From a virus: a stretch of 39,750 nucleotides of DNA. The notes under the pieces were generated by a model that was given only the letters and a program-made list of their open reading frames with translations, made no database searches and was not told the origin of the DNA. Location of the stretch: IMG/VR virus record IMGVR_UViG_3300020215_000094, positions 1 through 39,750 of that record; one strand, 5' to 3'. Below, piece by piece: positions 1 to 11,160 of this stretch. Every line of letters starts with the position of its first letter. Positions within the stretch are counted from its first letter, which is position 1. The position numbers and the translations under genes were made by a program.

Positions 1-154
1 GCCTCCGGTCAAGCTGCCATTCAACGACGATCTTGTAGGACCCACACGCCTTGGTCACCTTGACCAGCGCCCAGTCGGCGGCGACTGCCAGCGCGCCGAT
101 CCCAAGAACCAGCAGGAGCAAGCGCCCGATCCAGAGCGCCACGACGTCAACCAT
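1..154 (-). CDS. Partial copy of small membrane protein (complete at 39525-39734)
   Basis: This is the first 51 codons of the gene that is complete at the right end, cut by the contig edge. It starts at ATG 154-152 and overlaps the end of the upstream gene (147-371) by 8 bp. The single base that differs from the right-end copy changes a Cys codon from TGC to TGT, so the protein is unchanged. It should not be counted as a second gene. Confidence 0.8.
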   Translation of the reverse strand, partial: MVDVVALWIGRLLLLVLGIGALAVAADWALVKVTKACGSYKIVVEWQLDRR

Positions 155-170
155 CGCCCGACCCCTCGGC
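1..170. repeat. Left copy of 170-bp terminal direct repeat
   Basis: These 170 bases recur at 39581-39750 with a single difference (A at 44, G at 39624). The repeat lies inside one gene and its overlap with the next, so it is best read as the closing overlap of a circular assembly (or a terminally redundant/circularly permuted genome). A true short direct terminal repeat is possible but less likely because the repeat has no special structure and cuts through a gene. Confidence 0.9.
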
Positions 171-371
171 CCTCTCGGGGGCGTCCTGTCCCCCGAGGCC
201 CATCTGCGGCCAGAACAGCGCCGCCAATTCACGGCAGCGTCCCGGCTCGTCTTTCAAGCGCGCTGGCATGTACGTCCGGATGAAGTCGCCGAACGGCCCG
301 GGGCCTTCCATCTGATTGGCATAGGAACGGAGCGCCGAGGCGATCAATCGGCGATCGATGTCGTCAAACAT
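147..371 (-). CDS. Small early protein, 74 aa, unknown function
   Basis: The start at ATG 371 is chosen because it overlaps the stop of the upstream gene (364) and gives a sensible N-terminus (MFDDIDRRLI). The longer open frame upstream is the antisense of the neighbour. The protein is soluble, has no recognisable domain, and ends in an acidic Gly/Glu tail. It is one link in the leftward chain of small early genes and overlaps the next gene by 8 bp at its stop. Function not recognised. Confidence 0.6.
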   Translation of the reverse strand: MFDDIDRRLIASALRSYANQMEGPGPFGDFIRTYMPARLKDEPGRCRELAALFWPQMGLGGQDAPERAEGSGDG

Positions 372-660
372 CCCCCTCCCCCAAGCCGGCCTCGGCAAGC
401 GCGGCGCGTGCGATAGCAGCGACCCCAGTGTTTCGGCTCGCGATGGACCGCAGCGCCGCCGCGAGGAGGTCACGCTGGCGCTTCACGTCGGCCATCTCCG
501 ACGCACAGGGCGTGCCGCAGTTCGCCGTGTCGCGGAGAGACCGCACCTCCTCCCGCAGCCGGTCGCGCTCGGCCTCTAGCTCGGCGATGCGAGCGTCACG
601 CTCGTCAATCTGCTCGATGCAGGAGTCCACCATCGCCCGCAGGGCCGTCAGGTCACTCAC
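364..660 (-). CDS. Coiled-coil early protein, 98 aa
   Basis: It starts at GTG 660 with a GGGAGGG Shine-Dalgarno a few bases upstream. Residues about 15-45 form a strong charged heptad coiled coil rich in Glu/Arg/Leu (IAELEAERDRLREEV), followed by a Cys-containing linker and an Ala-rich helical C-terminus. Such short coiled-coil proteins are common in phage early operons without an assigned role. It overlaps the downstream gene's start by 8 bp. Confidence 0.65.
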   Translation of the reverse strand: MSDLTALRAMVDSCIEQIDERDARIAELEAERDRLREEVRSLRDTANCGTPCASEMADVKRQRDLLAAALRSIASRNTGVAAIARAALAEAGLGEGDV

Positions 661-690
661 GCGAGCCCTCCCCGCCGTCGCCTTCGCCGA

Positions 691-927
691 TCATTCGCAC
701 GACCGCTCGACCTGCTCCACCTCCGTGCCGTCACGCTCGATCTGTTCGTCGCGGATCGCCTTGCCGGTCCACATGTAGGCTTCCTCCAACGATGTCAGCA
801 GCAGCGACTTCGGCCGACTATCTTTCAAGACGGCCTCCGCGTAGGACTCGATCCGCTCAAACATCTCCTTGAACACTTGTTGCTTGTCCTGGCTAATCTT
901 GTCGTACTTCACGTAGCTGAACCGCAT
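691..927 (-). CDS. Acb2/Tad1-hairpin-like protein, candidate cyclic-nucleotide sponge
   Basis: The 78-residue protein starts at ATG 927 with GGGAGAG upstream; the longer frame is antisense of the neighbour. It is all-helical. Residues 40-58 read KSLLLTSLEEAYMWTGKAI, which matches my memory of the signature of the Acb2/Tad1 hairpin family (a P/R-x-x-S-L-x-x-T-x-L-E-E-A-x-M-W pattern near the C-terminus). Members of this family are phage anti-defence proteins that bind cyclic oligonucleotide signals of CBASS or the gcADPR signal of Thoeris. The position in an early operon of tiny genes fits. Alternative: a family member of unknown ligand or no sponge activity. Confidence 0.6.
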   Translation of the reverse strand: MRFSYVKYDKISQDKQQVFKEMFERIESYAEAVLKDSRPKSLLLTSLEEAYMWTGKAIRDEQIERDGTEVEQVERSCE

Positions 928-929
928 CG

Positions 930-1166
930 TCACTCTCCCTTGGTGGGTTGTTCCCCAAACGTCTCCACGATCCAGGCCGCGAGGGCGAGGGCTTCGGTAG
1001 CATTGAGCGCGAGCCGGCAAACCAGCCGGCCGTCGTCATCGACAAAGGCAATCTCGCCGCCCGGCGTGTCGCCCGTGACCATGCCGACCCTGCGCGGCAG
1101 GAGTAGCCTCAATCTGTCGTCCTTCAACTTTCGGCACCGCGCCGCATACTCAGACGCCTTGCTCAT
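930..1166 (-). CDS. Small early protein, 78 aa, unknown function
   Basis: The start at ATG 1166 has AGAGGAG upstream and overlaps the stop of the previous gene (ATGA at 1166-1163). The N-terminal third is basic and helical (KASEYAARCRKLKDDRLRLL); the rest looks like a beta-rich segment (EIAFVDDDGRLVCRLAL) followed by an Ala-rich helix. No known family recognised. The translation start region is a near-identical duplicate of that at 1372 (see findings). Confidence 0.6.
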   Translation of the reverse strand: MSKASEYAARCRKLKDDRLRLLLPRRVGMVTGDTPGGEIAFVDDDGRLVCRLALNATEALALAAWIVETFGEQPTKGE

Positions 1167-1372
1167 CGGGGCTCCTCTCGGCCGCATTCGGAAATGACAC
1201 GCCGAAGCTCTGCTAGCCCGCAGGTGCAGGGCCGCGCATAGATCGCCGGGCACAGCGGCGCGTGGTGACGGATCGCCTTCGCCGCACCGAACAGATACAG
1301 GAACGCGCGCGCGACCAGCACGCCCCGGCGCTTGCGCTTGACGGCCAAGTGCGCCAACTCAAGCGGGCTCAT
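1163..1372 (-). CDS. Small early protein, 69 aa, unknown function
   Basis: Starts at ATG 1372 behind the same AGAGGAG leader as the next gene and ends in an ATGA overlap with it. It has a basic N-terminus, a short hydrophobic stretch (GVLVARAFLYLFGAAKAI) that could be an amphipathic or weak membrane helix, and three Cys plus two His residues in the middle (HHAPLCPAIYARPCTCG) that could bind a metal. Function not recognised. Confidence 0.5.
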   Translation of the reverse strand: MSPLELAHLAVKRKRRGVLVARAFLYLFGAAKAIRHHAPLCPAIYARPCTCGLAELRRVISECGREEPR

Positions 1373-1613
1373 CGGGGCTCCTCTCGGTGCGGAGGCGGTT
1401 CAGCACGTCGCGCAGGTGCAGCGCCCAAGCGGGCAGCGGCTTGTCCTCGTCGCCTCGCCAGACCTCGGAGGCCAGGATCATCTCGCAGTTGTCGGTCAGG
1501 TCGAGGAACGCGCGGGCCACGTCCACAGCCACGCCCGCAGGCACCGTCCCGCGCATGCTCGGCGCTGTGGGCCAGCCCTTCACGAGCTTGCGCGCCGCAT
1601 CCAGCGGGGTCAT
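1359..1613 (-). CDS. Small early protein, 84 aa, unknown function
   Basis: Starts at ATG 1613, overlapping the stop of the upstream gene (ATGA), and runs 14 bases past the start of the next gene. A second open frame at 1369-1629 covers the same DNA, but its Arg-rich composition is typical of an out-of-frame reading, whereas this frame has a normal residue mix (MTPLDAARKLVKGW; ARAFLDLTDNCEMILA). No family recognised. Confidence 0.55.
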   Translation of the reverse strand: MTPLDAARKLVKGWPTAPSMRGTVPAGVAVDVARAFLDLTDNCEMILASEVWRGDEDKPLPAWALHLRDVLNRLRTERSPDEPA

Positions 1614-1909
1614 GGCTTCGGCTCCTCAAAGAATTGCCGCAGGATCTTGGCTAGCTCGTCATATGCGCGGGCCCTCCGGATCGTCTCCGGATCGGCCTTG
1701 AGGAAGGCGAAGACCGCGTCAATCGCCTTATGGTCGCCGTCCTTGCCATAGTCGCCGGAGTCTACCCATTCGATGTCGTGCAGCGCCTCGGCGATGAGAA
1801 AGAGGAGACCCCGGAATGCTGCGCGCCTTGGGTCGCGGTCAACATGCTCTAGGCGCTCGGCGAGGTCGCGCACCTTGTAGAAGAAGTACTCATAGCTTCC
1901 GCCGCTCAT
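1610..1909 (-). CDS. Conserved phage protein, SGGSYEY/ALHDIEWVDSGDYG type, 99 aa
   Basis: The N-terminus MSGGSYEYFFYKV and the central ALHDIEWVDSGDYG block are, from memory, hallmarks of a small protein found in many unrelated tailed phages; no biochemical role is established that I know of. It is mostly helical. The start ATG 1909 overlaps the upstream gene's stop at 1906. It sits in the middle of the leftward early operon. Confidence 0.65.
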   Translation of the reverse strand: MSGGSYEYFFYKVRDLAERLEHVDRDPRRAAFRGLLFLIAEALHDIEWVDSGDYGKDGDHKAIDAVFAFLKADPETIRRARAYDELAKILRQFFEEPKP

Positions 1910-2208
1910 GATTCACGCCCCGCGCGCCAGGCTTCGAGGGCCTTGAACACGTCGAACTTCGCGTCCTCGTACATCAGTTGCGCGTTGGGCGCCGGCGAGT
2001 CGTCGGCCTCCCAGAGCGCTGTCGCTGCCGTCGCCAAGGCCCGGAGCACGCGCAGTTCGGCGAGGGCCGCCGGCGCCTGTGAAATCAGCCACGACAGCTT
2101 CGCCCCGTCGAGAATCTCGACCTCGTGGCCGTCGATCGTCTCGGTGGTCCGCAGCGTCTCCACGCGCCCCACGAACGCCTCTAGCTCATTGTCCGTCAAC
2201 CAACGCAT
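1906..2208 (-). CDS. Small early protein, 100 aa, unknown function
   Basis: ATG 2208 is chosen for its TTGGAG ribosome site and sensible N-terminus (MRWLTDNELEAFVGRVETL); the longer frame upstream is antisense. The pattern of a short N-terminal acidic helix, a W-x-x-x-A segment (LSWLISQAPAALAEL) and an Ala-rich C-terminal helix resembles small phage early proteins of unknown function. It overlaps the next gene's start by 4 bases. Confidence 0.6.
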   Translation of the reverse strand: MRWLTDNELEAFVGRVETLRTTETIDGHEVEILDGAKLSWLISQAPAALAELRVLRALATAATALWEADDSPAPNAQLMYEDAKFDVFKALEAWRAGRES

Positions 2209-2210
2209 CG

Positions 2211-2507
2211 TCACTCCAAGCCCAGGCGCTTCATCAGTTCGTCGCGCCAGTTCAGCGCCGACGGGATCACGAGGCGCTTCGCCATTCCCTCGCAGTACTG
2301 TTCGGTGTCGCGCCAAGCCGCAAGAAACTGCTCCCGCGTCACCGTCACGGGCGCGGGCTCTAGCTCCCAATCGGTGGCCAAAACATCGTCATGGCTCACG
2401 ACAAAAACCCGGTCAGATCCTAGCCACCCGGCGGGCGCTACATCATGTTGTTGGTTGTGCCTGCGCCTAAACCGCCGGCCGGACTTTACGGCGTCGAGCA
2501 AGTTGAT
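2211..2507 (-). CDS. Possible Tad2-like (DUF2829-type) protein; apparent AUC start
   Basis: The N-terminal block LLDAVKSGRRFRRR and the later DDVLATDWELEP resemble the DUF2829/Tad2 family pattern (a helix with a Gly-Lys/Arg-x-x-R-R turn, a beta barrel, then a D-L/V-L-A-x-D-W motif). Tad2 binds Thoeris signal molecules. This copy has a shorter middle than usual and a C-terminal helical extension ending MKRLGLE. The annotated start is the AUC at 2507, because GGAGG lies 7 bases before it and the family normally begins M-N-x-x-x-A. A longer frame from ATG 2573 exists but would cross the divergent promoter at 2536-2564 and has only a crowded ribosome site; TTG 2501 is another choice. Family assignment is tentative. 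Confidence 0.45.
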   Translation of the reverse strand: MNLLDAVKSGRRFRRRHNQQHDVAPAGWLGSDRVFVVSHDDVLATDWELEPAPVTVTREQFLAAWRDTEQYCEGMAKRLVIPSALNWRDELMKRLGLE

Positions 2508-2535
2508 GGCGCGTCCTCCAACGTAAACGAGAGGT

Positions 2536-2564
2536 TTGACATTTTGGTTCCGGCCATTTACGAT
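2536..2564 (+). promoter_or_regulatory. Sigma70-type promoter for winged-helix gene
   Basis: A perfect -35 TTGACA (2536-2541) and a -10 TACGAT (2559-2564) are separated by exactly 17 bases, putting transcription start near 2571, 25 bases before the ATG at 2596. This is the best-looking promoter in the window, and it marks the plus-strand island as an independently transcribed unit within minus-strand genes. Confidence 0.65.
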
Positions 2565-2595
2565 CCCTTCCATCCTTCACCGACGACGAGCGCCG

Positions 2596-2982
2596 ATGCC
2601 CCGCAAGTCCAAGCCCCGCCGCCTTCCCGCGTCGCCCGACGCGAAGCTAGAGCGCGTCGCAGCGCAGCTGCAGGAAGCGGCGAAAGCCTTGATCGATGCG
2701 GCCGGCCAGCTACTCGAGATTCGAGCAGCGATGCGCGCTGCGCCCGCGGCCGAGGCGCCGAAGCGTGGGCGTAGCGGGCTCTACGAGCACCTTGACGTGA
2801 TTCTAAGGGAGCGACCCGGCGGCGCGACGGTTGCTGAGCTGATACGAGAGGTGCAGCGCCGCGGCCTCGGGAAGAAGTATGCCAACTTGAGGGCGATCGT
2901 TTACATGTCGTTGTACAAGCGGCCGGAGCTGTTTCGGCAGGTCTCGCGGGGGCACTGGCAGAGCACCATTTTCGACAAGTGA
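2596..2982 (+). CDS. Winged-helix-like regulator, paralogue A, 128 aa
   Basis: The start at ATG 2596 follows the promoter by about 25 bases; the longer frame begins upstream of the predicted transcript. After a basic N-terminus comes an Ala-rich helix (residues about 15-40), then from about residue 60 a winged-helix-like domain: LYEHLDVILRERPGG, AELIREVQRRG, a recognition-like helix and a terminal F-R-x-V-S-x-G-H-W wing. The layout recalls HARE-HTH/winged-helix modules (G-x-W/F at the end of the wing). It is clearly related to the gene at 4717-5061 and, like it, is followed by a tiny membrane peptide. A DNA-binding regulator is inferred. Confidence 0.6.
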   Translation: MPRKSKPRRLPASPDAKLERVAAQLQEAAKALIDAAGQLLEIRAAMRAAPAAEAPKRGRSGLYEHLDVILRERPGGATVAELIREVQRRGLGKKYANLRAIVYMSLYKRPELFRQVSRGHWQSTIFDK

Positions 2983-2988
2983 ATCGAA

Positions 2989-3030
2989 AAGCAAAAGGCC
3001 CCCGGGTGCAACCGGAAGGCCTTTGCTTTA
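2989..3030 (+). terminator. Intrinsic terminator after winged-helix gene
   Basis: An imperfect stem AAGCAAAAGGCC / GGCCTTTGCTT (2989-3000 with 3018-3028, one bulged A) ends in a short T-rich run, 6 bases after the stop of the winged-helix gene. An inner CCGG/CCGG pairing may extend it. Confidence 0.65.
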
Positions 3031-3136
3031 CCCAGCCGCTGGCGCAGAGGGGCAAAGAGGGGACTAGTCCAATTCCCTGATACCCCGCGGTTAACTCTGC
3101 GTCAACTAGCGGCGCTTCCAGGAAGGAGGGGCTGCA

Positions 3137-3235
3137 ATGGAGATGCATGTCTACGTTGACCCCAAACTGATCGCGCTGTTGTTCGCCATGTGGATACTGA
3201 CGGCGTCGCTCGCCGCTGCTGACGAGCCCGGTTGA
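3137..3235 (+). CDS. Tiny one-helix membrane peptide, 32 aa
   Basis: ATG 3137 lies 7 bases after a perfect AAGGAGG ribosome site (3123-3129), which is why this very short frame is called. The peptide begins MEMHVYVDPKL, then has a hydrophobic helix (LIALLFAMWILTASLAA) and a short acidic tail. It could be a small inner-membrane peptide (for example a regulator of a host membrane protein or a minimal holin/antiholin). It is the counterpart of the 39-aa peptide at 5227-5346, which also follows a winged-helix gene. Confidence 0.6.
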   Translation: MEMHVYVDPKLIALLFAMWILTASLAAADEPG

Positions 3236-3241
3236 CGTCAT

Positions 3242-3269
3242 GCCGGGCAGCTCACCCGAGTTGCCCGGC
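3242..3269. terminator. Bidirectional terminator between convergent genes
   Basis: A perfect 8-bp stem GCCGGGCA / TGCCCGGC (3242-3249 and 3262-3269) lies exactly in the 35-base gap between the stop of the plus-strand membrane peptide (3235) and the stop of the minus-strand membrane protein (3271). T-tracts are modest on either side. Confidence 0.55.
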
Positions 3270-3270
3270 T

Positions 3271-3384
3271 TCATTCCTCTCCCAACTCCCTGCGCCACCC
3301 CACCGCCACCAGCGCCACCGCCAGCATCACCGTCGAGAGGGCGAAGATCACGGCCGCGGCGCGCCAGGCCCAGTCGGGGATCAT
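3271..3384 (-). CDS. Tiny membrane protein, 37 aa
   Basis: ATG 3384 overlaps the stop of the upstream gene (ATGA, 3384-3381). The product, beginning MIPDWAWRAA, has one hydrophobic helix (VIFALSTVMLAVALVAVGW) and a charged RRELGEE tail. It is the last gene of the short minus-strand group 4044-3271. Function unknown; too short for domain matching. Confidence 0.55.
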   Translation of the reverse strand: MIPDWAWRAAAVIFALSTVMLAVALVAVGWRRELGEE

Positions 3385-3620
3385 AGGCCCTCCAGCGCGG
3401 GATTCTTGGCGCCGCAGCGGGGGCATCCGTGCTTGGCCCAGATGTAGGAGTTTATCTGTTCCTCGGTCATGGGCTTGTTGTCGTGCGCCACGAGCGTCAT
3501 CAGAAGCAGCCGCTCAGGCTCGGTCAGGTGCTCGAGCCGCCAGAGCGTGCGCCATCGCATCTGCTCGGCGCCCTCCTTCCCGCCCGTGTACCAAAGCTTC
3601 AGGCGCGCGTTCAGGTTCAC
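3381..3620 (-). CDS. Small protein with C-terminal CxxC, 79 aa
   Basis: GTG 3620 is preferred because it overlaps the upstream stop (GTGA) in the manner of the surrounding genes. The protein is helical (MRWRTLWRLEHLTEPERLLL, AHDNKPMTEEQINSYIW) and ends with a CPRCGAKNP zinc-knuckle-like motif; with only one CxxC pair visible, metal binding would need a second protein or dimer. It is part of a four-gene overlapping minus-strand group. Function not recognised. Confidence 0.55.
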   Translation of the reverse strand: MNLNARLKLWYTGGKEGAEQMRWRTLWRLEHLTEPERLLLMTLVAHDNKPMTEEQINSYIWAKHGCPRCGAKNPALEGL

Positions 3621-3847
3621 CGAAGCTCCTTCCTCGGCCTCGAGCCGGCGTGTCGCTCTCTGTCGCGCTTTCTCTGGAGGGACGTTCGGAAAGGCTGCGC
3701 CTTCAGGCAGGCCGGACATGACGTCACGTCCAGCCACGTCCCGGGCCGAGGGCCGCCTTTGCGGAAGTGCAGGGCGCCGCAGCCGCAGATTGCGTTAGCC
3801 ATGCGGTAGGCGGCGGCTAGGCGGTAGGCGGGGGGTTGGGAGGTCAT
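3617..3847 (-). CDS. Small Cys-rich basic protein, 76 aa
   Basis: ATG 3847 overlaps the upstream stop at 3844; the longer frame is antisense to the lipoprotein gene. The middle carries CGCG and CPAC pairs about 22 residues apart (AICGCGALHF ... VTSCPACLKA), consistent with a small zinc ribbon, and the C-terminus is strongly basic. It could bind nucleic acid. No family recognised. Confidence 0.55.
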   Translation of the reverse strand: MTSQPPAYRLAAAYRMANAICGCGALHFRKGGPRPGTWLDVTSCPACLKAQPFRTSLQRKRDRERHAGSRPRKELR

Positions 3848-4044
3848 CTCTTCACCACCGGCTCCCAGCACGTCGGCGGCAGCGTCGTCGCGTCGCACCA
3901 GGCGGGCCCGCCGTCGCGCATGAGCCACGTCTTCGGCTCATTCGAGATGAAGTAAGACCCGGGCTTGTGCGGCTGGCATGACGCCGCGCACGCGACGGCG
4001 ACGACGAGAATCACGAAGAACGAATTCGCCTCGGACGTGGTCAT
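3844..4044 (-). CDS. Small lipoprotein-like exported protein, 66 aa
   Basis: ATG 4044 has a strong GGAGGAG ribosome site. The N-terminal hydrophobic stretch (FFVILVVAVACAAS) ends at a Cys in an AASC lipobox-like context at about residue 23, followed by a short polar domain with two further Cys residues (WCDATTLPPTCWEP) that may form a disulfide. It is probably exported and lipid-anchored. A superinfection or envelope role is possible but not shown. Confidence 0.5.
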   Translation of the reverse strand: MTTSEANSFFVILVVAVACAASCQPHKPGSYFISNEPKTWLMRDGGPAWCDATTLPPTCWEPVVKR

Positions 4045-4057
4045 GCGAGCTCCTCCG

Positions 4058-4132
4058 GCGGACAAGACGAGGCATGGCAAAGCGAGACATGGCGCAACTG
4101 GACATGACATAGCCTGGCGCGACACAACGTGA
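4058..4132. repeat. Five degenerate 15-bp tandem units
   Basis: Starting at 4058, 4073, 4088, 4103 and 4118, units of exactly 15 bases share the pattern CATGRC-(A-rich)-RCG-WGR, most clearly CATGGCAAAGCGAGA and CATGGCGCAACTGGA. The array fills the 94-base gap upstream of the lipoprotein gene on its promoter side. It may be a decayed minisatellite or a set of regulator sites spaced 1.5 helical turns apart. Confidence 0.45.
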
Positions 4133-4138
4133 TCGGAG

Positions 4139-4477
4139 TCATCCCGCCTTCCCCCACCGCGCCAGCTCGCGCGCAACGTCATCGATCGACCGCGCGACAA
4201 AGCCGATGCCGCCGGCCTTGCGGAAGTCGGCGAGGAACTTCTCCTGCGCCTCGGTGGGCTTGCCCCGGGGCGCCTTGACCTCAATGGCAAGCGGCCAGCC
4301 GAGCCAGATGCCGAGGATGTCCGAGACGCCCGCGCGGAAGTGCTTCCCGGGGCGCCGGTAGACGCGCTTTGTCGGATCGAATAGGCCGACCGAGGCCGTC
4401 GGCCAGGCGAGGCAGCGATGGGCTGCCAGCCAATCCAGAATGGCGTTCTGGATCGCCTTCTCGGGCGTCGTCTTCAA
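4139..4477 (-). CDS. VRR-NUC-type nuclease, 112 aa
   Basis: The protein has the compact PD-(D/E)xK layout of phage VRR-NUC proteins: an N-terminal helix starting PEKAIQNAILDWL, then GVSDILG with Asp53, then AIEVKAPRG with Glu66 and Lys68, then the typical KPTEAQEKFLADFRKAGG block and a C-terminal helix. These small enzymes are viewed as Holliday-junction resolvase or flap-type nucleases in phage replication and recombination. The start is TTG 4477 with AAGAG about 8 bases upstream; no better start exists. Catalytic residues look intact. Confidence 0.85.
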   Translation of the reverse strand: MKTTPEKAIQNAILDWLAAHRCLAWPTASVGLFDPTKRVYRRPGKHFRAGVSDILGIWLGWPLAIEVKAPRGKPTEAQEKFLADFRKAGGIGFVARSIDDVARELARWGKAG

Positions 4478-4640
4478 GGGAAGGGCTCTTGACGCGGCTG
4501 GGCGCCGCTATTGCCGGGGGATGGCAGAACCCTTCTAGCCCGCGCGGGGCGGGCGGTCAACGACATCCGGGCGCGCGGCGTCGGCGTCGGCGACGGCGGG
4601 GAGGTTCGGGGAGAGTCGGTTTCGTGCGGCGAAAACCGGG

Positions 4641-4672
4641 GAAAACGGTTGGCGGAACGCTCGTGTTATAAG
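4641..4672 (+). promoter_or_regulatory. Possible extended -10 promoter for second winged-helix gene
   Basis: TGTTATAAG (4664-4672) is an extended -10 element (TGn followed by TATAAG). No good -35 is seen at the usual distance. It lies in the 239-base gap between the divergent nuclease gene and the gene starting at 4717, about 38 bases before that start. Confidence 0.4.
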
Positions 4673-4716
4673 TTGCTTTCGGCAATCCGGAGCAGTAGTA
4701 TGGGAGTACAAGCCAC

Positions 4717-5061
4717 ATGCCAGAACCAGCGCCCGCAGCGGCTTCCACGCCTGTCGGGCGACTCGACGAGGAGATCGCCTTCCTCGCCTCGAGCGTCGAA
4801 TCCTTGCGCCAACAGCTCCGCGAAAAAGTCCGAGAGCGGCGCGCTCTGGCCCGCGTCGAGCCGCTGCATGAGGTCATCCACGTGATTCTCACCGAACATC
4901 CTGGAGGCTTGAGCATGAGCGAGCTGGTACGAGCGCTTCAGGCGCGCGGCCGCCTGCTGACCAACGCCCACCCCGCCATCAACGTGGCGACCCAGTTGAA
5001 GCGCCACCGCACGCGCTTCACGCGGCGCAACGGCCGCTGGTACGCGCGCCGTCAGCCGTAG
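4717..5061 (+). CDS. Winged-helix-like regulator, paralogue B, 114 aa
   Basis: Starts at ATG 4717 with GGGAG about 10 bases upstream. Residues about 15-45 form a coiled coil (EEIAFLASSVESLRQQLREK); the rest is a winged-helix-like domain: LHEVIHVILTEHPGG, SELVRALQARG, a recognition-like helix and FTRRNGRWYA as the wing. Aligned to paralogue A (2596-2982) it keeps L-x-E, V-I-L-x-E-x-P-G-G, E-L-x-R-x-x-Q-x-R-G and the final F-x-R-x-x-x-G-x-W. The coiled coil suggests dimers. It is followed by a tiny membrane peptide, as in the other island. Confidence 0.6.
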   Translation: MPEPAPAAASTPVGRLDEEIAFLASSVESLRQQLREKVRERRALARVEPLHEVIHVILTEHPGGLSMSELVRALQARGRLLTNAHPAINVATQLKRHRTRFTRRNGRWYARRQP

Positions 5062-5095
5062 CTCTTACAGCCGCAGGGAGCGGCTGATACGAAGC

Positions 5096-5127
5096 GGCCT
5101 CGCATCGGTCATCACCCGAGCGAGGCC
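5096..5127 (+). terminator. Hairpin between winged-helix gene B and membrane peptide
   Basis: GGCCTCGC (5096-5103) pairs with GCGAGGCC (5120-5127), extended inward by TCGG/CCGA across a bulged A. There is no T-run after it, so it may be a processing or attenuation structure rather than a full intrinsic terminator. It sits in the same relative place as the terminator at 2989-3030 in the paralogous island. Confidence 0.4.
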
Positions 5128-5226
5128 ACCATCTAAGCTTGGCGCCAAGAGAGCCAAAGCGTAGTGCGTACCTTCAGGGTAGCGCCGCGGCTTTCTGCGC
5201 GTCAAGCGATGCAGGGAGGCCGGGGT

Positions 5227-5346
5227 ATGCGAGTCCTAGGGTATCAGCTTGTGATCATTGTCGTCGTAGTGGCGATTGCGGCGACGGCGATCGCCCATCT
5301 CGTCACCGCACGCGGTGGGGAGGTGACGCTCCACATCCGGCACTGA
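5227..5346 (+). CDS. Tiny one-helix membrane peptide, 39 aa
   Basis: ATG 5227 lies 7 bases after AGGGAGG (5213-5219), so it is preferred over the GTG at 5164. The peptide has a long hydrophobic helix (VLGYQLVIIVVVVAIAATA) then a His-containing polar tail (HLVTARGGEVTLHIRH). It mirrors the 32-aa peptide at 3137-3235 in position, size and topology, although sequence similarity is slight. Function unknown; an inner-membrane micropeptide is inferred. Confidence 0.55.
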   Translation: MRVLGYQLVIIVVVVAIAATAIAHLVTARGGEVTLHIRH

Positions 5347-5360
5347 GCGAGGCCGATGCG

Positions 5361-5394
5361 ACGGGCCGCGTGGGGCATCCTGCGCGGCCCGTTT
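5361..5394 (+). terminator. Strong intrinsic terminator after membrane peptide
   Basis: A perfect 10-bp stem ACGGGCCGCG / CGCGGCCCGT (5361-5370 and 5383-5392) with a 12-base loop is followed by TTCT, 15 bases after the stop at 5346. It closes the second plus-strand island. Confidence 0.75.
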
Positions 5395-5396
5395 CT

Positions 5397-5413
5397 ATCG
5401 CATTAAATGCGAT
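5397..5413. other. AT-rich 17-bp palindrome
   Basis: ATCGCAT-TAA-ATGCGAT is a perfect 7-bp inverted repeat with a 3-base centre, placed between the plus-strand terminator and the 3' end of the minus-strand lipoprotein gene. It could be the 3' hairpin of the lipoprotein mRNA or a protein-binding site. Confidence 0.35.
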
Positions 5414-5444
5414 GCCGACCCTCGCCTCGTCGCGCGCTCGGGGG

Positions 5445-6140
5445 CTAGGGATAGCCTTTCGTGCAATCGACCGTTGCCTTCTGGGTCTCATCGGCCTTGT
5501 TTACATACGTCGCCTTGTGAGTCGCGATCGAGTACTCGACGAAAACGTGGAACGGGTCGCAGAGCAGCTTCCCCTCGCCGACCGCGACGCTCGACCCAGA
5601 GTAGAAATCCGATGCAGAACCTCGGTCTAGATCGCCGGAGCCCGAGTAATAGGCGATGGCGCTCTGGCAGGTAACGAAGTAGTCGCCACTCGAAAAGCGC
5701 GTTACCGAGAGGTCGACGCCGCGCCTCTCGACATTTGGGTCAGGATCCAGGTCGGCGGCCGCGATCGAGCAATCCCAGGTCTCGGCGACCGTCATTCCGT
5801 CGCCCTTCGGACCCGCCGGCCCCGCAGCGCCCGCCGCCCCATCCTTCCCCTTCAGATCGATGTCCGTCCACGCCGCGCCGTCGCAGTGCTTGAACGTCGC
5901 CGCGGCCTTCACGTAGACGAGCCGGTCCTTCGCCGCCGCATCGCATTTCGGGAGCGCTGCGTCGTCGGCGACGAGCATGACGTAGGGGCCGCCTGGCGCG
6001 TTAGCGCCCGCCGGATCGCCGCCCGCCTTCTCGTCGGGCTTCACGACGCCCGGGTGTCCGCCCGTTAGCTCCGGAGCCGTTCCGCCGTCCGACGCGCCGC
6101 AGCCAAGCACCAGGACCGAGAGAGCCAGAATCCGTTTCAT
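5445..6140 (-). CDS. Collagen-like lipoprotein, candidate lysogenic-conversion gene
   Basis: This 231-residue protein starts at ATG 6140 behind GGAGGCGG. It has a lipoprotein signal (MKRILALSVLVLGC, lipidated Cys14), a Gly/Asp/Pro-rich spacer, a compact domain (CDAAAKDRLVYVKAAATFKHC) and a short collagen-like GxY stretch around residues 95-115 (GKDGAAGAAGPAGPKGDG), then a beta-rich C-terminal domain. It lies between the XRE repressor and the early region, is a single gene with no phage homology that I recognise, and looks like a cell-surface protein made by the lysogen. Such lipoproteins with collagen-like inserts are common in some deltaproteobacterial lineages. Lipidation is predicted from sequence; the role (for example receptor masking or superinfection exclusion) is inference. 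Confidence 0.65.
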   Translation of the reverse strand: MKRILALSVLVLGCGASDGGTAPELTGGHPGVVKPDEKAGGDPAGANAPGGPYVMLVADDAALPKCDAAAKDRLVYVKAAATFKHCDGAAWTDIDLKGKDGAAGAAGPAGPKGDGMTVAETWDCSIAAADLDPDPNVERRGVDLSVTRFSSGDYFVTCQSAIAYYSGSGDLDRGSASDFYSGSSVAVGEGKLLCDPFHVFVEYSIATHKATYVNKADETQKATVDCTKGYP

Positions 6141-6250
6141 CGCCGCCTCCCACCAAGTTGGCGAGGCCCGGATCGGTGGATTTCGGCGCTAGGTAAGACA
6201 AGATTTGCGCATAGGATTAACGCCCTATGGCTCATGCAACTGACTTCGGA

Positions 6251-6571
6251 TTACGCTTTACCAGAAGTCTTTCGCTTGAGCACGAGTTCCGGCATGTGGG
6301 CGTTGATGACCCGGAGGGCCTCCATAAGCGCCACGGGGACGGGCACTTTTGCCGGCGGCGCCCCCTCCAGAAGTAGCTCGTGGAGCGGGACGCCGAAAAC
6401 CTCAGCAATCCCTTGAAGAGTCTCCTGCCCGATCCAAGTATCCCCCGTCTCCAGCCGCGAGACGGTCGGAATCGATAGACCCGCCTTTTCCGCCAAATCC
6501 GCTTGGCTCCAGCTGCGCTCCTTCCGGAGCCGCCGGATGTTTTTCCCCAAGACCAACGCAGGCCGAGCCAT
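6251..6571 (-). CDS. XRE-family repressor-like regulator, 106 aa
   Basis: Starts at ATG 6571, preceded by GGGGGAG; the frame is open to 6634 but that segment has no ribosome site. Residues about 10-65 form a classic five-helix Cro/CI HTH (LGKNIRRLRKERSWSQADLA, then EKAGLSIPTVSRLETG). The C-terminal 35 residues are short and lack the LexA/CI peptidase domain, so RecA-triggered self-cleavage is unlikely. It faces the divergent promoters and palindrome at 6633-6698 and probably acts as the lysogeny repressor or a Cro-like switch; no second regulator is found on the plus side. Confidence 0.8.
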   Translation of the reverse strand: MARPALVLGKNIRRLRKERSWSQADLAEKAGLSIPTVSRLETGDTWIGQETLQGIAEVFGVPLHELLLEGAPPAKVPVPVALMEALRVINAHMPELVLKRKTSGKA

Positions 6572-6632
6572 GTCTCCCCCGTAAACGGGTTGAGCGACAT
6601 GTAACACGGGCGTAGCGGCATTTCCCTCAATC

Positions 6633-6638
6633 ATTGTA
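6633..6638 (-). promoter_or_regulatory. Leftward promoter -10 (repressor)
   Basis: On the minus strand the sequence reads TGC-TACAAT, an extended -10. The palindrome 6646-6663 would overlap the region where the -35 should be, so the repressor could regulate its own gene. About 60 bases of leader separate it from ATG 6571. Confidence 0.45.
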
Positions 6639-6645
6639 GCATATT

Positions 6646-6663
6646 AGACGTTCCCAAACGTCT
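6646..6663. promoter_or_regulatory. Operator-like palindrome AGACGTT-CCCA-AACGTCT
   Basis: A perfect 7+4+7 inverted repeat lies between the two opposing promoters, overlapping the -35 zone of the leftward one and ending 5 bases before the -35 of the rightward one. This is the expected position for binding of the XRE dimer encoded next door. Confidence 0.55.
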
Positions 6664-6668
6664 TCAGA

Positions 6669-6698
6669 TTGCAGAATATCTAAATTACGTGCTAATAG
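6669..6698 (+). promoter_or_regulatory. Rightward promoter of the main operon
   Basis: TTGCAG (6669-6674), an 18-base spacer, then TGC-TAATAG (extended -10, hexamer 6693-6698). The -10 regions of both promoters share a TGCTA core in opposite orientation. Expected start near 6705, giving a leader of about 210 bases before ATG 6916. Confidence 0.45.
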
Positions 6699-6826
6699 AT
6701 TCCGACGAGCTGAAAGCTCGCGGACGGCGCAGACACGGGGGGTGGCGGCGCAGTAGGCGGGTGAAAGGCTCAGGAATGTAGCTTGGTTGGACTTGCCGGG
6801 GCTTAGGGATGGGCTCGGCTTGGGTA

Positions 6827-6875
6827 GGGGCTCCTCAGGTTCTCCACGGAGGGTCTGAGGAGCCCCTCTGCTTTA
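6827..6875 (+). terminator. Strong leader terminator upstream of first rightward gene
   Basis: A perfect 12-bp stem GGGGCTCCTCAG / CTGAGGAGCCCC (6827-6838 and 6855-6866) is followed by TCTGCTTTA. It lies between the rightward promoter and the first gene at 6916, so transcription must read through it: an attenuator or antitermination checkpoint is implied, unless a promoter lies in 6876-6905. Confidence 0.75.
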
Positions 6876-6915
6876 CCTCAGCCACGGAGGGGAATTCAAC
6901 CTAGGAGTTCCACCG

Positions 6916-7530
6916 ATGACCGCCGCTGACTCCCTTCCGCCCGAACCAACCCCGCCGTCGGTTCTCGACCTCCTGCTCGCGCGCTTTGCCGACGCCGCGA
7001 ACACGCTCTCGTTCGACGAGCTGATGATCCTCGACGACGCCGTCGACGCGGCGGAGGTCGCGTTCACGGCCGACGAGCGCCGCCGTCTCGACGAGCTGCT
7101 CGCCACCAAGATCGACGGCTGGGCCGCCTACCTGTCGGCCGAGCGCGCGGTCGCCAACTTCCACGACGACGTCGTCAGGCGCCACACCGCCCGGAAACGG
7201 GCGCGGCTCGATCGCATCGAGAAGAAGCGCCAACGGCTTGCCGAAATCATGCGCCAGCGCGGGCGCGACAAGGCCTACGGCCACGACTTCTACGTCTGGC
7301 TGAAACGCGACGAGTCCTGCGAGACTCTGCGTGCTCCGACCGAGGCCGACGCCTTGGCCTACCCGCAGTTCGTTTCCGCCAAGCTCGAGCTGAGCTGGAA
7401 GAAAAACGAGATCAAGGCGGCCATCCGCGCGGCGCTCGCTGCCGGAAAGGCGGCCCCCGTAGACTTTGCTACCATCCGCGAATCCTACTCCCCGCAGATC
7501 GAAGACAACGTGAAAGGACTGAAGTCGTGA
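6916..7530 (+). CDS. Siphovirus Gp157-like protein
   Basis: The 204-aa product shows the Gp157 family layout: an N-terminal acidic helical region (residues 1-60), KIDGWAAYLSAERAVANF, a basic coiled coil (residues about 80-115), a beta segment (YGHDFYVWLKRDES), and a C-terminal ELSWKKNEIKAAIRAALAAG where the family has its K-x-x-I-K-x-x-L-K-x-G motif. Gp157 proteins sit beside recombination or ssDNA-binding genes in many phages; a resistance-related role was suggested in streptococcal phages but is not established. First gene of the rightward operon; its end overlaps the next start (GTGA). Confidence 0.75.
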   Translation: MTAADSLPPEPTPPSVLDLLLARFADAANTLSFDELMILDDAVDAAEVAFTADERRRLDELLATKIDGWAAYLSAERAVANFHDDVVRRHTARKRARLDRIEKKRQRLAEIMRQRGRDKAYGHDFYVWLKRDESCETLRAPTEADALAYPQFVSAKLELSWKKNEIKAAIRAALAAGKAAPVDFATIRESYSPQIEDNVKGLKS

Positions 7531-8276
7531 CGACCGCCATCCAAGTGCGCCCTGACGCGCCGGCGCCAAGCATCTTTGACCTTCGGCCGTCGGCCATGAT
7601 CGCCGTGGCGACGGAGGTCGCCAATGAGCTTCGCTCGATCATCTCGAGCCAGAAGCTCTACGTGAAAATCCAGAACCGCGACTACGTGAAGTGCGAGGGC
7701 TGGACAACGATGGGCGCCATGCTCGGCATCACGCCCCGGGAGCGGTCGGTCCTCGAACTCGAGGACGGCAGCTACGAGGCCCACGTCGACCTCATCAACC
7801 TCCGCACCGGCGTCGTCGTCGGCGGCGCCTCGGCCCTCTGCGGCTCCGAGGAGCGGCGCTGGGGCGACGCCGATCGCTACGCCCGCCGCTCCATGGCGAT
7901 CACGCGCGCCACGGGGAAAGCCTACCGGCTGGCCTTCTCGTGGGTCATGACCTTGGCCGGCTACGAGCCGACGCCCTACGAGGAGATGCCGCACGAGCCG
8001 GCGGCAGAACAGCAGCAGCAGACCAAAACGCGAACGGTCGTCGACGAGTCCTCGGGCGCCAAGATCATCGCGAAGGCGGGGCCGAAGAAGCCGCCCTACG
8101 ACGGCTCGTCGGAGGCCCAGGCGAAGCTCATGCAGATGCTCGTCGCCCGGAAGGTCCCCGAGGATCTCTGGGCGCCAATCGACGCGGCGATGATCGGGAA
8201 GAACTCCGACCAGCTCGACGCGATCATCGAGGCCGTCCGGCGCGCGGAGGCCATTCCGGCGGAATTCAGCGAGTGA
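7527..8276 (+). CDS. Conserved phage protein, probable DNA-metabolism role, 249 aa
   Basis: Starts at GTG 7527, overlapping the Gp157 stop. The central part (YVKCEGWTTMGAMLGITP; RWGDADRYARRSMAITRATG; KAYRLAFSWVMTLAGYEPTP) is a pattern I recall from conserved phage proteins encoded next to Gp157, ERF or RecT-like genes. The C-terminus after a Gln-rich linker (about residue 165) carries a second small helical domain (EAQAKLMQMLVARKVPEDLW) similar to those at the ends of RecT/ERF-type proteins. A single-strand annealing or ssDNA-related role is an inference from context, not from catalytic residues. Confidence 0.55.
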   Translation: MTTAIQVRPDAPAPSIFDLRPSAMIAVATEVANELRSIISSQKLYVKIQNRDYVKCEGWTTMGAMLGITPRERSVLELEDGSYEAHVDLINLRTGVVVGGASALCGSEERRWGDADRYARRSMAITRATGKAYRLAFSWVMTLAGYEPTPYEEMPHEPAAEQQQQTKTRTVVDESSGAKIIAKAGPKKPPYDGSSEAQAKLMQMLVARKVPEDLWAPIDAAMIGKNSDQLDAIIEAVRRAEAIPAEFSE

Positions 8277-8320
8277 GCGGGGACAAGGGGATGTGGAGCT
8301 ACGCACCGGGAGGAGTGGGA

Positions 8321-9184
8321 ATGGGCGACATGCGGATTCGGTCGATCAAGCCGAGGTTCTGGGTCTCCGGCGACGTGAAGCGGATGAGTGACTCCGTCGC
8401 GCTGTTTTTCATCGGGCTTTGGAACGCCGCCGAGGACGACGGAAAGCTCAAGTGGGACCCCGTCGAACTTGCCGCTCAACTCGGTGGCAGGTGGCACGTA
8501 GGTAAGGTCCGACTCTTCATCAAGAAGCTAGTAACTGGCGGGCAAGTCGTCCTCAGCTCCGACGCAACTTGGATTCTAATCGTCAACTGGTCGCATCAAA
8601 AGATCGACAAGCCGCGTCAACATCTCGTGAAGGCATCCGAGATTCAGTGGCTTAGCCAAAGCGATTCGACGACGGCTCTCGAATCGTCGCGAAAAAGCGG
8701 CGCTGTATTGGATAGTATTGGATTGGATAGGGATAGGATCCCTATCGGGGCGAAGGTTCGCAGCCGTCGGGAAAAGCGCCCCCCGGCCGAGCCTCCGAAA
8801 GAGCAGCTCGCTCCGCTCGCGACGACGGCCGAGCCGTCGTCCCCCGTGAAAGATTTCATCGCGGTCTACTGCGACGCCTTCAAGTCCCGCTACGGCACCT
8901 GGCCGACGGTGGGGAAGAAAGGCGCCGGGATCGCCCGCCGCATCGTCGCCGAGGTCGGCTTCGAGAAGGCAAAGCTCTGCGCCCAGGCCTACGTGGCGAT
9001 GGGGGACGCGTGGTTCCTCACCCGCAACCACGACCTGGCGACGCTGGAGAGCAACCTCACGAAGGTCGCCGCCTACGCGGACACCGGCCAGACCATCACG
9101 TCGGCCGGCGCCCGGCAGGCCGAGCTCTACTCGCACAACGCCGCCGTCGTCGACGCGATGCTTCGGGAGGACGGCGCGTCATGA
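8321..9184 (+). CDS. Phage replication initiator-like protein (O/DnaD-type), 287 aa
   Basis: ATG 8321 follows GGGAGGAG by 5 bases; the frame is open far upstream but that is the shadow of the previous gene. Residues 1-105 look like the winged-helix N-terminal domain of phage replication proteins (MRIRSIKPRFWVSGDVKRMS; VALFFIGLWNAAEDDGKL). A proline-rich linker follows, then a helical C-terminal domain (DFIAVYCDAFKSRYGTWPTV; NHDLATLESNLTKV) like DnaD-like/loader-interacting domains. Neighbouring helicase-loader-like gene fits. It probably binds the phage origin and recruits helicase loader. Confidence 0.7.
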   Translation: MGDMRIRSIKPRFWVSGDVKRMSDSVALFFIGLWNAAEDDGKLKWDPVELAAQLGGRWHVGKVRLFIKKLVTGGQVVLSSDATWILIVNWSHQKIDKPRQHLVKASEIQWLSQSDSTTALESSRKSGAVLDSIGLDRDRIPIGAKVRSRREKRPPAEPPKEQLAPLATTAEPSSPVKDFIAVYCDAFKSRYGTWPTVGKKGAGIARRIVAEVGFEKAKLCAQAYVAMGDAWFLTRNHDLATLESNLTKVAAYADTGQTITSAGARQAELYSHNAAVVDAMLREDGAS

Positions 9185-9765
9185 CCGAGCGCGAGGCGTT
9201 CTTGAAGATGCTCGCCGTGGTGGCCGACCTCTGCGCCTACCGTCTCTCGCCGGAGGTCGCCCGCCTCTACGCCGACCACATCGCCCCGCACGGACTCCTG
9301 GCGGCGGCGGAGGCGCTGAAGCGCCTGATGGTCGATCTCAAGCCCGGCCGCTCTTTCCCGTCGGTGAACGACGTCCTCTCGGCGATGGGCAAGACGCCGC
9401 TCTCTGACGACGCCCAGGCGCGCGACACGGTCTCGAAGATCGTCCAGGCCATCTCGACCCACGGCTACAACTGGCCGCACCGCGCGCGAGCTGCCGTCGG
9501 CGAGATCGGCTGGGCGATCGTCCACCGGATGGGCGGCTGGGAGACCGTCTGCGAGGACTACACCTACGCCCGCGAGAAAACCGTGATGCTCGCCCAGTGG
9601 CGCGAGCTGGCGAAGGCCTTGGCCGAGCGCGCCCGCTTCGGAGAACTGGACGCGGCGCCGGCGCTGCCGCCAGGTCCCGATGCGGCCCGACCGGCCGTCA
9701 CCAACCCCTTCGCTCGTCGGGCTCTCGCCATCGCCAACGGGAAGCCACCTGAGGACGACGCATGA
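9181..9765 (+). CDS. Helicase-loader-like replication protein (G39P-type), 194 aa
   Basis: Overlaps the initiator gene by ATGA. The N-terminal 65 residues (LKMLAVVADLCAYRLSPEVA, then LYADHIAPHGLLAAAEALKR and RSFPSVNDVLSAMG) match the pattern of the G39P/phage helicase-loader N-terminal domain, in which a helical bundle ends with an F-P-x-x-x-D/E-I/V segment. No Walker motifs are visible, so it is not a DnaC-type ATPase. The C-terminus is Ala/Pro-rich. A role in loading or regulating the host replicative helicase is inferred from this and from its neighbour. Confidence 0.5.
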   Translation: MTEREAFLKMLAVVADLCAYRLSPEVARLYADHIAPHGLLAAAEALKRLMVDLKPGRSFPSVNDVLSAMGKTPLSDDAQARDTVSKIVQAISTHGYNWPHRARAAVGEIGWAIVHRMGGWETVCEDYTYAREKTVMLAQWRELAKALAERARFGELDAAPALPPGPDAARPAVTNPFARRALAIANGKPPEDDA

Positions 9766-9929
9766 GGCTCTCCCGTCTCGTCCGTTGGCTTTCCCTCGTC
9801 TGGCGCCGCCTCATCCGCCGACGCGATTCCAGACCCAAATCCGCCGGCCTGGTGCGGTCGAGCTACCAGCCCCTAGAGCCGCTCAACCTCTACCGCCTCG
9901 ACAAGCAGCAAAGGAGACCCAAGCCATGA
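9762..9929 (+). CDS. Small basic protein, 55 aa
   Basis: A frame too short for routine calling: ATG 9762 overlaps the previous stop (ATGA), and its own stop overlaps the next ATG at 9926. The N-terminus is an arginine- and tryptophan-rich helix (LSRLVRWLSLVWRRLIRRR) and the rest is polar. It could bind membrane or nucleic acid. Called because both ends use the same 4-base overlap seen along this operon. Confidence 0.5.
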   Translation: MRLSRLVRWLSLVWRRLIRRRDSRPKSAGLVRSSYQPLEPLNLYRLDKQQRRPKP

Positions 9930-10141
9930 GACACCGCGACGCCTGGATCCACTGCACCGGCTGCGGCCATACGTTCCCGCGCGGCTTTGACGTCGGCTGC
10001 AATTGCCAGATGGAGCTTCGCCTGCTCGACCCCGAGGACGTCCCCAGAGACGCCTGGGCGCGCTACGACGGCGGCGTGCATCCCTTGGACCGCGAGGGCG
10101 AGAGAGAGTGGGACTTGGGCGACTTGAGGGAGGGGTTGTGA
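9926..10141 (+). CDS. Small zinc-ribbon-like protein, 71 aa
   Basis: ATG 9926 is chosen over longer starts because of the ATGA overlap and the AAGGAG ribosome site just upstream. Cysteines occur as CTGCG and CNC (CTGCGHTFPRGFDVGCNC) within 18 residues, a compact treble-clef or zinc-ribbon-like site. The C-terminal half is acidic. Unknown role in the middle operon. Confidence 0.6.
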   Translation: MRHRDAWIHCTGCGHTFPRGFDVGCNCQMELRLLDPEDVPRDAWARYDGGVHPLDREGEREWDLGDLREGL

Positions 10142-10470
10142 GCCTGCGGGACGACCTGAAGGCGATCCAGGACGCGCGTACCGCCGACTTCGCGGTGCTC
10201 GACGCGATCGGCGTGGAGATCAAAGAGGTCGAGGCGGCGCTCGAAGCCGCCGGCTTGCGCGAGGAGATCGAGGTGCCCATCGGCGACGGCGAGAACCTCG
10301 TCTGGGCGCGCGGCAACGGGCGCCGGTGGCGACTCATGTACGACGACCCGGACCACGACTGCTTTCGGCCGCTAATCGAGACGCCGCAGGCGGTCCGCGC
10401 GCGGATGCGCGACCCGCTGCGCGAGTTCGTCGCGGCCGTCAGGCGGCGCGTCACGGAGGGACGCCGATGA
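10138..10470 (+). CDS. Small middle-operon protein, 110 aa, unknown
   Basis: GTG 10138 overlaps the previous stop (GTGA). The first 45 residues are helical (LRDDLKAIQDARTADFAVLD; EVEAALEAAG); the middle is beta-like (VPIGDGENLVWARGNGRRWR) and resembles a short nucleic-acid-binding barrel, followed by a basic C-terminal helix. No family recognised. Confidence 0.55.
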   Translation: MSLRDDLKAIQDARTADFAVLDAIGVEIKEVEAALEAAGLREEIEVPIGDGENLVWARGNGRRWRLMYDDPDHDCFRPLIETPQAVRARMRDPLREFVAAVRRRVTEGRR

Positions 10471-10673
10471 GCCCGCGCGACAAGCCACGGGCCGGCGGCC
10501 TCGTCGTCAGCATGCGCGTTGGCGAGTCGGTGTTCGTCGGGACGGCGAAAATCACGCTCATCAAGCGTCGCAAAGGCGACGTCGGCGGCCTCCAGCTGCT
10601 CATCAAGGCGCCAAAGGATGTCCTCGTCGTGATGCCCCACCACAGAGCCGCCGCCAAGGAGGGTGACGAGTGA
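10467..10673 (+). CDS. CsrA/RsmA-like RNA-binding protein, 68 aa
   Basis: ATG 10467 overlaps the previous stop (ATGA). From residue 12 the protein reads GLVVSMRVGESVFVG, then ITLIKRRKGDVGGLQLLIKA, then PKDVLVV. This follows the CsrA fold order: strand 1 with R-x-G-E (as in bacterial L-x-L-x-R-R-V-G-E), a strand 2-3 hairpin, and strand 4-5 with the I-x-A-P-K-D/E-V motif. CsrA dimers bind GGA motifs near ribosome sites and repress or stabilise host mRNAs. The phage copy has an N-terminal extension and a short C-terminus. A phage-borne CsrA could reprogramme host translation or tune the phage's own GGA-rich leaders. Confidence 0.7.
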   Translation: MSPRDKPRAGGLVVSMRVGESVFVGTAKITLIKRRKGDVGGLQLLIKAPKDVLVVMPHHRAAAKEGDE

Positions 10674-10846
10674 CCCCGCCAACCCCCGAATCCTCCCTCG
10701 ACCGTCAGGTCAGAGAGATCGTCGCGGCTGTCCGCTGCCTCTGGCGCTGTCGGCGGTGCGGCCGGATCTACCGCGACGAGCCCTTGGTCTGCGAGCCTAG
10801 AGGGTGCGACGGCCTGAGCTTCGAGGCCGTGGAGGTACCCAATTGA
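10670..10846 (+). CDS. Small zinc-ribbon protein, 58 aa
   Basis: Starts at GTG 10670 (GTGA overlap with the CsrA-like stop) and was found by extending the overlap chain. It carries CRRCG at about residue 26 and CEPRGC about 11 residues later, a four-cysteine zinc ribbon of rubredoxin-like spacing. A metal-binding or nucleic acid-binding role is likely. No specific family recognised. Confidence 0.6.
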   Translation: MTPPTPESSLDRQVREIVAAVRCLWRCRRCGRIYRDEPLVCEPRGCDGLSFEAVEVPN

Positions 10847-11160
10847 GCGTGGTCGTGGACTTCGAGCGCGTCTTAGAGCGCCAGCGGGAGCAGGCTGAGC
10901 GCGCCTATGACTTGGCGCTAGCCAGGGAGGCGGCCGACGACGCCTACCGCGAGCACGCCATTCGCGAGGAGCGGTACCAGTGCCTCCACGGCCTGCGCGC
11001 CGAGCTAAGGCGGGGCATCAAGCCTGGTCGCCTCACCGCGGAGAAGCTGGACGCCGTCGTCGATGAAGCCAAGCGCGACTTGGAGGAGGCGGAGATGGCG
11101 CTAGACCTCGCGGTGGCCACGTATCTCAGACTCGGCGGCGATCCGCGCGAGTACCAATAG
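10843..11160 (+). CDS. Coiled-coil protein, 105 aa
   Basis: The start is TTG 10843, overlapping the previous stop as TTGA, with GGAGGT 6 bases upstream (10831-10836); GTG 10849 is an alternative. It is almost entirely helical and charged (FERVLERQREQAERAYDLAL; EAKRDLEEAEMALDLAVATY). It ends the replication/middle group; its stop is 100 bases before the attP core. Confidence 0.6.
   Translation: MSVVVDFERVLERQREQAERAYDLALAREAADDAYREHAIREERYQCLHGLRAELRRGIKPGRLTAEKLDAVVDEAKRDLEEAEMALDLAVATYLRLGGDPREYQ

Follow-up and report, generated by a model that had tools for sequence, protein, structure and literature searches.

The region considered here lies in the virus record IMGVR_UViG_3300020215_000094, the whole of which (39,750 bases) is referred to as the window. 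To the left of a gene for a Cro/CI-type repressor (6251-6634, minus strand), the conserved genes are found on the minus strand. In their midst, and head-on to the flanking genes, are two plus-strand units, namely, unit 1 (2536-3270) and unit 2 (4640-5400). Each comprises, in order, a promoter-like site, a gene for a putative regulator, one or more hairpins, an element of 66 nucleotides (nt), a micropeptide gene with its ribosome site, and a terminator-like hairpin. An earlier reading of these sequences (the original prediction) had described a winged-helix regulator and a membrane micropeptide as a module present twice on the plus strand against surrounding minus-strand genes. The orientation was confirmed, with the flanking minus-strand genes being conserved in the closest relative found, IMGVR_UViG_3300021057_000023 (39,698 bases; terminase 91% identical), termed here the sister phage. 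The comparison with the sister phage covered its positions 1 to 12,000 and revealed, among the flanking genes, 95% identity for a VRR-NUC gene and 100% identity for a gene encoding a lipoprotein-like protein of 66 residues.

The two regulator genes, regA (2596-2982, plus strand; 128 residues) and regB (4717-5061, plus strand; 114 residues), proved to be the paralogues they had been taken for. Their products share the motifs VILxExPGG and ELxRxxQxRG and, in a single BLASTP comparison, were 52% identical over 29 residues (E = 4e-8), with identity being 29% overall. As an alternative regA start, TTG at 2536, falls within the -35 box of the promoter-like site, the ATG at 2596 is the likely start of this gene. 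The GC content of third codon positions in the plus frame is 80% in both genes, and 56% in a long antisense open reading frame (ORF) over unit 1 (2558-3298), which was ruled out as a gene by codon composition. The sister phage contains an orthologue of regB (62% identity of the encoded proteins), with substitutions at the three codon positions numbering 36, 24, and 49, i.e., mostly at position 3.

Both regulators are predicted to consist of an N-terminal coiled coil followed by a C-terminal winged helix. The HARE-HTH domain family (PF05066) reportedly goes back to Aravind and Iyer in 2012. When the PF05066 profile was used, RegA scored 16.7 bits (E 0.0097) and RegB 15.8 bits, both below the gathering cut-off of 25.9 bits, whereas the sister orthologue of RegB passed with 29.3 bits (E = 1.2e-6). 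The AlphaFold2 model of RegB presents a single long helix (residues 12-44) and a winged helix (residues 50-110), the latter with predicted local distance difference test (pLDDT) values mostly above 75. RegA, modelled alone, was assigned helices at residues 14-48, 62-72, 79-88, and 98-108, following the same order as in RegB. In comparisons with PDB structures, the RegB winged helix resembled the HARE-HTH domain of ASXL1, the delta subunit of RNA polymerase, the DNA-binding domain of Rok, linker histones, and forkhead domains. The match to ASXL1 HARE-HTH (8h1t_K) was obtained with a probability of 0.98, a template modelling (TM) score of 0.70 by target length, a root-mean-square deviation of 2.3, and a Z-score of 8.4. 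As the Foldseek E-values for the RegB model were all above 0.05, the fold is clear, while the exact family hinges on how the sister orthologue scored in Pfam. Together with this score, the models support the winged-helix class originally proposed, probably of the HARE-HTH type. HARE-HTH domains feature an extra helix inserted in the helix-turn-helix (PMC11037411); in the RegB model, three helices are seen, and residues 77-85 form a 9-residue coil. RegA and RegB differ from that family in being stand-alone phage proteins of 114-128 residues with an N-terminal coiled coil, unfused to a nuclease or remodeller. No PHROGs profile matched the regulators or the micropeptides with an E-value better than 0.12, and no PADLOC defence family matched either.

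That each regulator gene has its own promoter was considered by scanning all 79,500 strand positions of the window with a sigma70 matrix, an approach that yields consensus matches only. At this level, the claim held true. The best site on either strand, TTGACA-17-TACGAT (2536-2564, plus strand), precedes regA, and the fifth best of all positions, TTGCTT-17-TAGTAT (4673-4701, plus strand), precedes regB. Directly upstream of the latter is a conserved TGTTATAA. In the sister phage, the promoter-like site of unit 2 reads TTGACG-17-TAACCT and ranks fourth in the first 12 kb. The expected hairpin after each regulator gene was likewise found, with folding stability being expressed as a z-score relative to shuffled sequence. 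Behind regA is a hairpin (2985-3030) with U-rich tails on both strands, such that it resembles a bidirectional terminator (2976-3030, z -4.3); read on the minus strand, it is terminator-like at 3018-2999. Behind regB are two plus-strand hairpins (5066-5130; z -4.3 for 5055-5145), the second stem of which is retained in the sister phage. Unit 1 ends with a plus-strand hairpin at 3242-3269 (3232-3280, z -5.6) and unit 2 with a terminator-like plus-strand hairpin at 5358-5398 (5340-5405, z -3.9).

Between regulator and micropeptide, both units contain an element of fixed length, TGGCGC-N53-GCGTCAA, located at 3040-3105 in unit 1 and at 5140-5205 in unit 2 (both plus strand). This pattern occurs exactly twice in the window, in none of 100 shuffles, and once in the sister phage, at the equivalent place; it is absent from 11 other related records. 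Because the pattern was defined after the sequences had been seen, an independent test was conducted, in which the genome was scanned on both strands with a consensus derived from unit 2 and the sister phage only. Unit 1 ranked second, matching 27 of 38 columns, with the next sites being the reverse of unit 2 itself (23) and unrelated sites (22). When the two intergenic stretches were aligned locally under strict settings, the element went undetected, and more permissive scorings gave p-values that ranged between 0 and 0.07 according to the scheme and the pair compared; the fixed-spacing and independent-consensus tests were relied upon instead. The distance from the regulator stop codon to the element is 57 nt in unit 1, 78 nt in unit 2, and 86 nt in the sister phage, while that from the element to the start codon of the micropeptide is 31, 21, and 25 nt, respectively. 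The shared element and these similar distances point to common descent of the whole unit and not of the regulator gene alone, so that the duplication originally proposed extends to the entire module.

In plus-strand RNA, the element would form a long stem-loop. Its arms pair over 7 bp in unit 2 and in the sister phage; six of these pairs can form in unit 1, where the stem is extended by GCCGCU/AGCGGC and AGAG/CUCU. One arm pair is G.U, formable on the plus strand only, and a single inner pair varies on both sides (A-U, G-C, G-U). Folding of the plus strand gave z-scores of -4.2 (unit 2), -4.0 (sister phage), and -1.3 (unit 1), as compared with -1.8, -2.6, and -0.3 for the minus strand. Read on the minus strand, the right-hand arm is TTGACG, followed at a distance of 17-18 bases by a -10-like box (TTGACG-17-TATCAG in unit 1, TTGACG-18-TACCCT in unit 2). 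These sites rank 24 and 25 of the 79,500 positions, and their counterpart in the sister phage ranks 14 in its first 12 kb. The element could possibly be an RNA leader, an antisense promoter, or a DNA operator.

The micropeptides are of 32 residues in unit 1 (3137-3235, plus strand) and 39 residues in unit 2 (5227-5346, plus strand), each with a single hydrophobic span. Both had been credited with an ideal ribosome site. This applies to micropeptide 1, the Shine-Dalgarno (SD) sequence of which matches at 6/6 positions, but not to micropeptide 2, with only 5/6. A census of 230 ATG-initiated ORFs of 25-60 codons in the window, requiring an SD match of at least 5/6 and a hydrophobic segment, returned three candidates, including these two. 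GC content by codon position in micropeptide 1 is 61/39/76. Micropeptide 2 ends in RGGEVTLHIRH, and the sister phage encodes a homologue of 38 residues (7373-7489) with a basic second residue, a single hydrophobic span, and the tail GGEV[TS]xx[IY][RK]H. Frame, length, topology, and tail are thus preserved; moreover, the residues of the two peptides pair better than under permutation (p = 0.00015), and of the six frames the true one scores best. A role for the micropeptides as the lysis holin was thought unlikely, with the NlpC/P60 gene being far off at 36647-37120. The third candidate of the census, a 37-residue single-span membrane gene with a ribosome site (3271-3384, minus strand), adjoins the border of unit 1 and is 86% identical in the sister phage.

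Unit 2 as a whole is present in the sister phage, comprising the regulator, a micropeptide of like topology, the element, and the terminator. DNA identity is highest in the terminator (93%), lower in the leader (76%), and lowest in the micropeptide (48%). As such, the regulator-micropeptide pair, which was to be sought in other phages, is found in one second phage. Unit 1 is absent from the sister phage. The sequences flanking it in the window (2460-2527 and 3266-3384) match sister positions 4899-4966 and 5405-5523, and between them the sister phage carries a minus-strand HNH_3 endonuclease gene in place of 2528-3265. This exchange between conserved flanks indicates that unit 1 is a discrete, exchangeable cassette of the moron type, about 740 bases in length, and upholds the moron character proposed at the outset. 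Like phage morons, the units have a promoter-like site and a terminator of their own, as judged by consensus and folding only, lie between genes of opposite strand, and are present or absent at one site in close relatives; they differ from morons in that one genome, the window, carries a related pair linked by the common leader element. The anatomy of the cassette and its moron status are, accordingly, very probably as described here.

Beyond the sister phage, no relatives of the regulators were detected in about 50,000 phage records, 72,000 plasmids, and 85,000 genomes, and the sister phage was the only relative obtained when IMG/VR was searched with the single regulator proteins and with an alignment. 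The 11 related records, which were found via the terminase and several of which are fragments, contain neither the regulators nor the element. A weak RegB match in one record (G006) lies within a protein of 780 residues and was considered to be due to chance, and a hit in another record (L131) covers the coiled coil alone. Scanning with a 15-base leader word, an ill-chosen pattern, gave 119 loci, most of them unrelated; longer patterns taken from the leader and the terminator matched the sister phage only.

Among the commonest unexplained genes of phages are those for tiny membrane peptides and for small winged-helix proteins, and the two are seldom linked together. The ingredients of the cassette are of known kinds, and their combination is found only in these two phages among the collections searched. 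The anatomy of the units, their duplication, the retention of unit 2 in a second phage, and the exchangeability of unit 1 are observed, whereas regulation, toxicity, and exclusion are inferred in what follows. The original prediction had named exclusion, toxicity, or lysogeny control as roles that such a system could have. The best explanation overall, albeit one in which confidence falls somewhat short of even, is that of an accessory, moron-type cassette in which a small membrane effector is kept in check by a winged-helix protein and a structured leader. As to how this might operate, the following scheme is offered tentatively. The winged-helix protein would be synthesized constitutively in the lysogen from the near-consensus promoters, would bind DNA as a coiled-coil oligomer, and would probably control its own cassette. 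Termination would be partial, with the majority of transcripts ending at the first hairpin behind the regulator gene. Transcripts that read through would bear the stem-loop leader, such that ribosome loading may be delayed or processing may be required for the peptide to be synthesized, in the manner of type I toxin mRNA. The peptide would then insert in the inner membrane, where it would serve to exclude other phages or to arrest growth. That the micropeptide diverges rapidly while its topology stays fixed is suggestive of adaptation to a target that changes.

Several observations argue against such a scheme. The unit 1 leader, with its z-score of -1.3, is not clearly more stable than shuffled sequence. 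The arms of the leader stem are invariant and so provide no covariation, and the stem does not include the ribosome sites. The unit is held by only two phage genomes. Micropeptides 1 and 2 cannot be aligned with each other, and changes between micropeptide 2 and its sister homologue number 18, 17, and 16 at the three codon positions (33 codons), without silent excess, a pattern in keeping with selection, either relaxed or diversifying, on a predicted membrane effector. These uniform changes, along with the presence of four hairpins in about 340 nt, would also be consistent with the segment behind the regulator being a structured non-coding RNA and the micropeptides not being translated. This is, however, very doubtful, given that two of the only three micro-ORFs in the window with an SD sequence and a membrane segment are located here and given the retention of frame, length, topology, tail, and residue pairing in the sister phage. 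Equally hard to credit is the notion that the winged-helix proteins are silencers or counter-silencers of the Rok/H-NS type that act genome-wide in phage or host, with the micropeptides being unlinked small membrane genes in a common transcription unit. Rok similarly combines a coiled coil with a C-terminal DNA-binding winged helix, and its DNA-binding domain is among the Foldseek matches (E 0.13), as is the WH_Rok profile among the profile matches (E 0.19; 12.3 bits vs. a cut-off of 27.6). Neither similarity is significant, however, both being weak and of a sort common to many winged helices, and the conserved pairing and leader speak for linkage.

Type I toxins offer a parallel, as these include membrane peptides of comparable size that are controlled by a leader, such as TisB of TisB/IstR-1 and the 38-residue BsrG of prophage SPbeta (PMC8309996), and type I toxin-antitoxin loci are known on prophages (PMC8309996; PMC5848175). 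Like tisB/istR-1, bsrG/SR4, and yonT/SR6, the cassette offers a tiny hydrophobic peptide with one span, a long structured leader, and possibly an antisense RNA; unlike these loci, its peptide is linked to a winged-helix protein gene and matches none of the known toxin families in sequence. The cassette could be a true type I system, in which an antisense RNA initiated at the minus-strand TTGACG of the leader and running back through the hairpin behind the regulator blocks a toxic peptide, the winged-helix gene being a partner on the same transcript. Minus-strand promoter-like sites are found at equivalent places in both units and in the sister phage, and in unit 1 the predicted antisense RNA (about 3070 to 2985) would terminate at a hairpin followed by a U-rich stretch. 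There is also a prophage precedent in yonT/SR6, where a polycistronic toxin is paired with an antisense RNA of ~100 nt (PMC5848175). No Rfam family matched at its gathering score; the nearest in this stretch is an antisense RNA, ctRNA_pGA1 (E 0.055), but with 21 bits as compared to a cut-off of 45. Furthermore, TTGACG doubles as an arm of the leader stem, from which its conservation may stem, the -10 boxes are weak, and there is no clear U-tract for an antisense RNA in unit 2. A true type I system, the main rival reading, is deemed unlikely. Alternatively, the element, at 66 bp of DNA, could serve as an operator, with dimers of RegA or RegB bound to inverted TTGRCGC half-sites at its ends repressing or looping the micropeptide gene and the RNA stem being a by-product. 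The arm spacing of 59 bp in all three copies, the inversion of the half-sites, and the adjoining gene for a DNA-binding protein in each case are in keeping with this idea. Yet the element contains no good plus-strand promoter to be controlled, and plus-strand RNA stability exceeds expectation in two of the three copies. An operator is likewise deemed unlikely.

Returning to a winged-helix protein and leader that restrain a membrane effector, a broader version would see in the cassette a new class, in which a HARE-HTH protein, a structured RNA leader of fixed length that harbours an antisense promoter, and a rapidly evolving membrane micropeptide make up a mobile, duplicable unit that places an exclusion or growth-arrest effector under protein and RNA control. 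This is a rather unlikely proposition. Should the cassette work as proposed, it would offer a prophage a way to keep a membrane effector under such dual control, and the succession of regulator, 66-nt element, and micropeptide would provide a search pattern for finding units elsewhere. Two copies here, one more in a relative, and a fixed-length cis-element give the unit clear borders, so that it can be cloned and tested whole.

As regards the genome as a whole, the window begins and ends with a direct terminal repeat of 170 bases (1-170 and 39581-39750; 99.4% identity), and is thus probably complete; the sister record is permuted relative to it. With an integrase, the Cro/CI-type repressor, and a P22-like portal, the phage looks temperate. 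A host prophage was sought via relatives of the terminase, and none was found. Of the genes near the units, that for the 66-residue lipoprotein-like protein (3844-4044, minus strand) is fully identical in the two phages despite diverging neighbours, and a partial second copy (46% over 37 residues) lies inside the other lipoprotein gene of the sister phage. The lipoprotein-like gene at 5445-6140 (minus strand) contains a collagen-like GKDGAAGAAGPAGPKGDG stretch; its sister counterpart encodes a different protein behind a similar kind of signal sequence. Elsewhere, the window phage encodes a probable pathway for a nonulosonic acid, i.e., a sialic-acid-like sugar (13018-13992, 20627-21643, and 31881-35330), including NeuB with a SAF domain, a Polysacc_synt_2 dehydratase, a class-III aminotransferase, and a CMP-sugar-type cytidylyltransferase. 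In addition, an MptE-like protein is encoded among the structural genes. The MptE-like Pfam family includes Maf flagellin glycosyltransferases. In several related phages, NeuB homologues are encoded close to the terminase.

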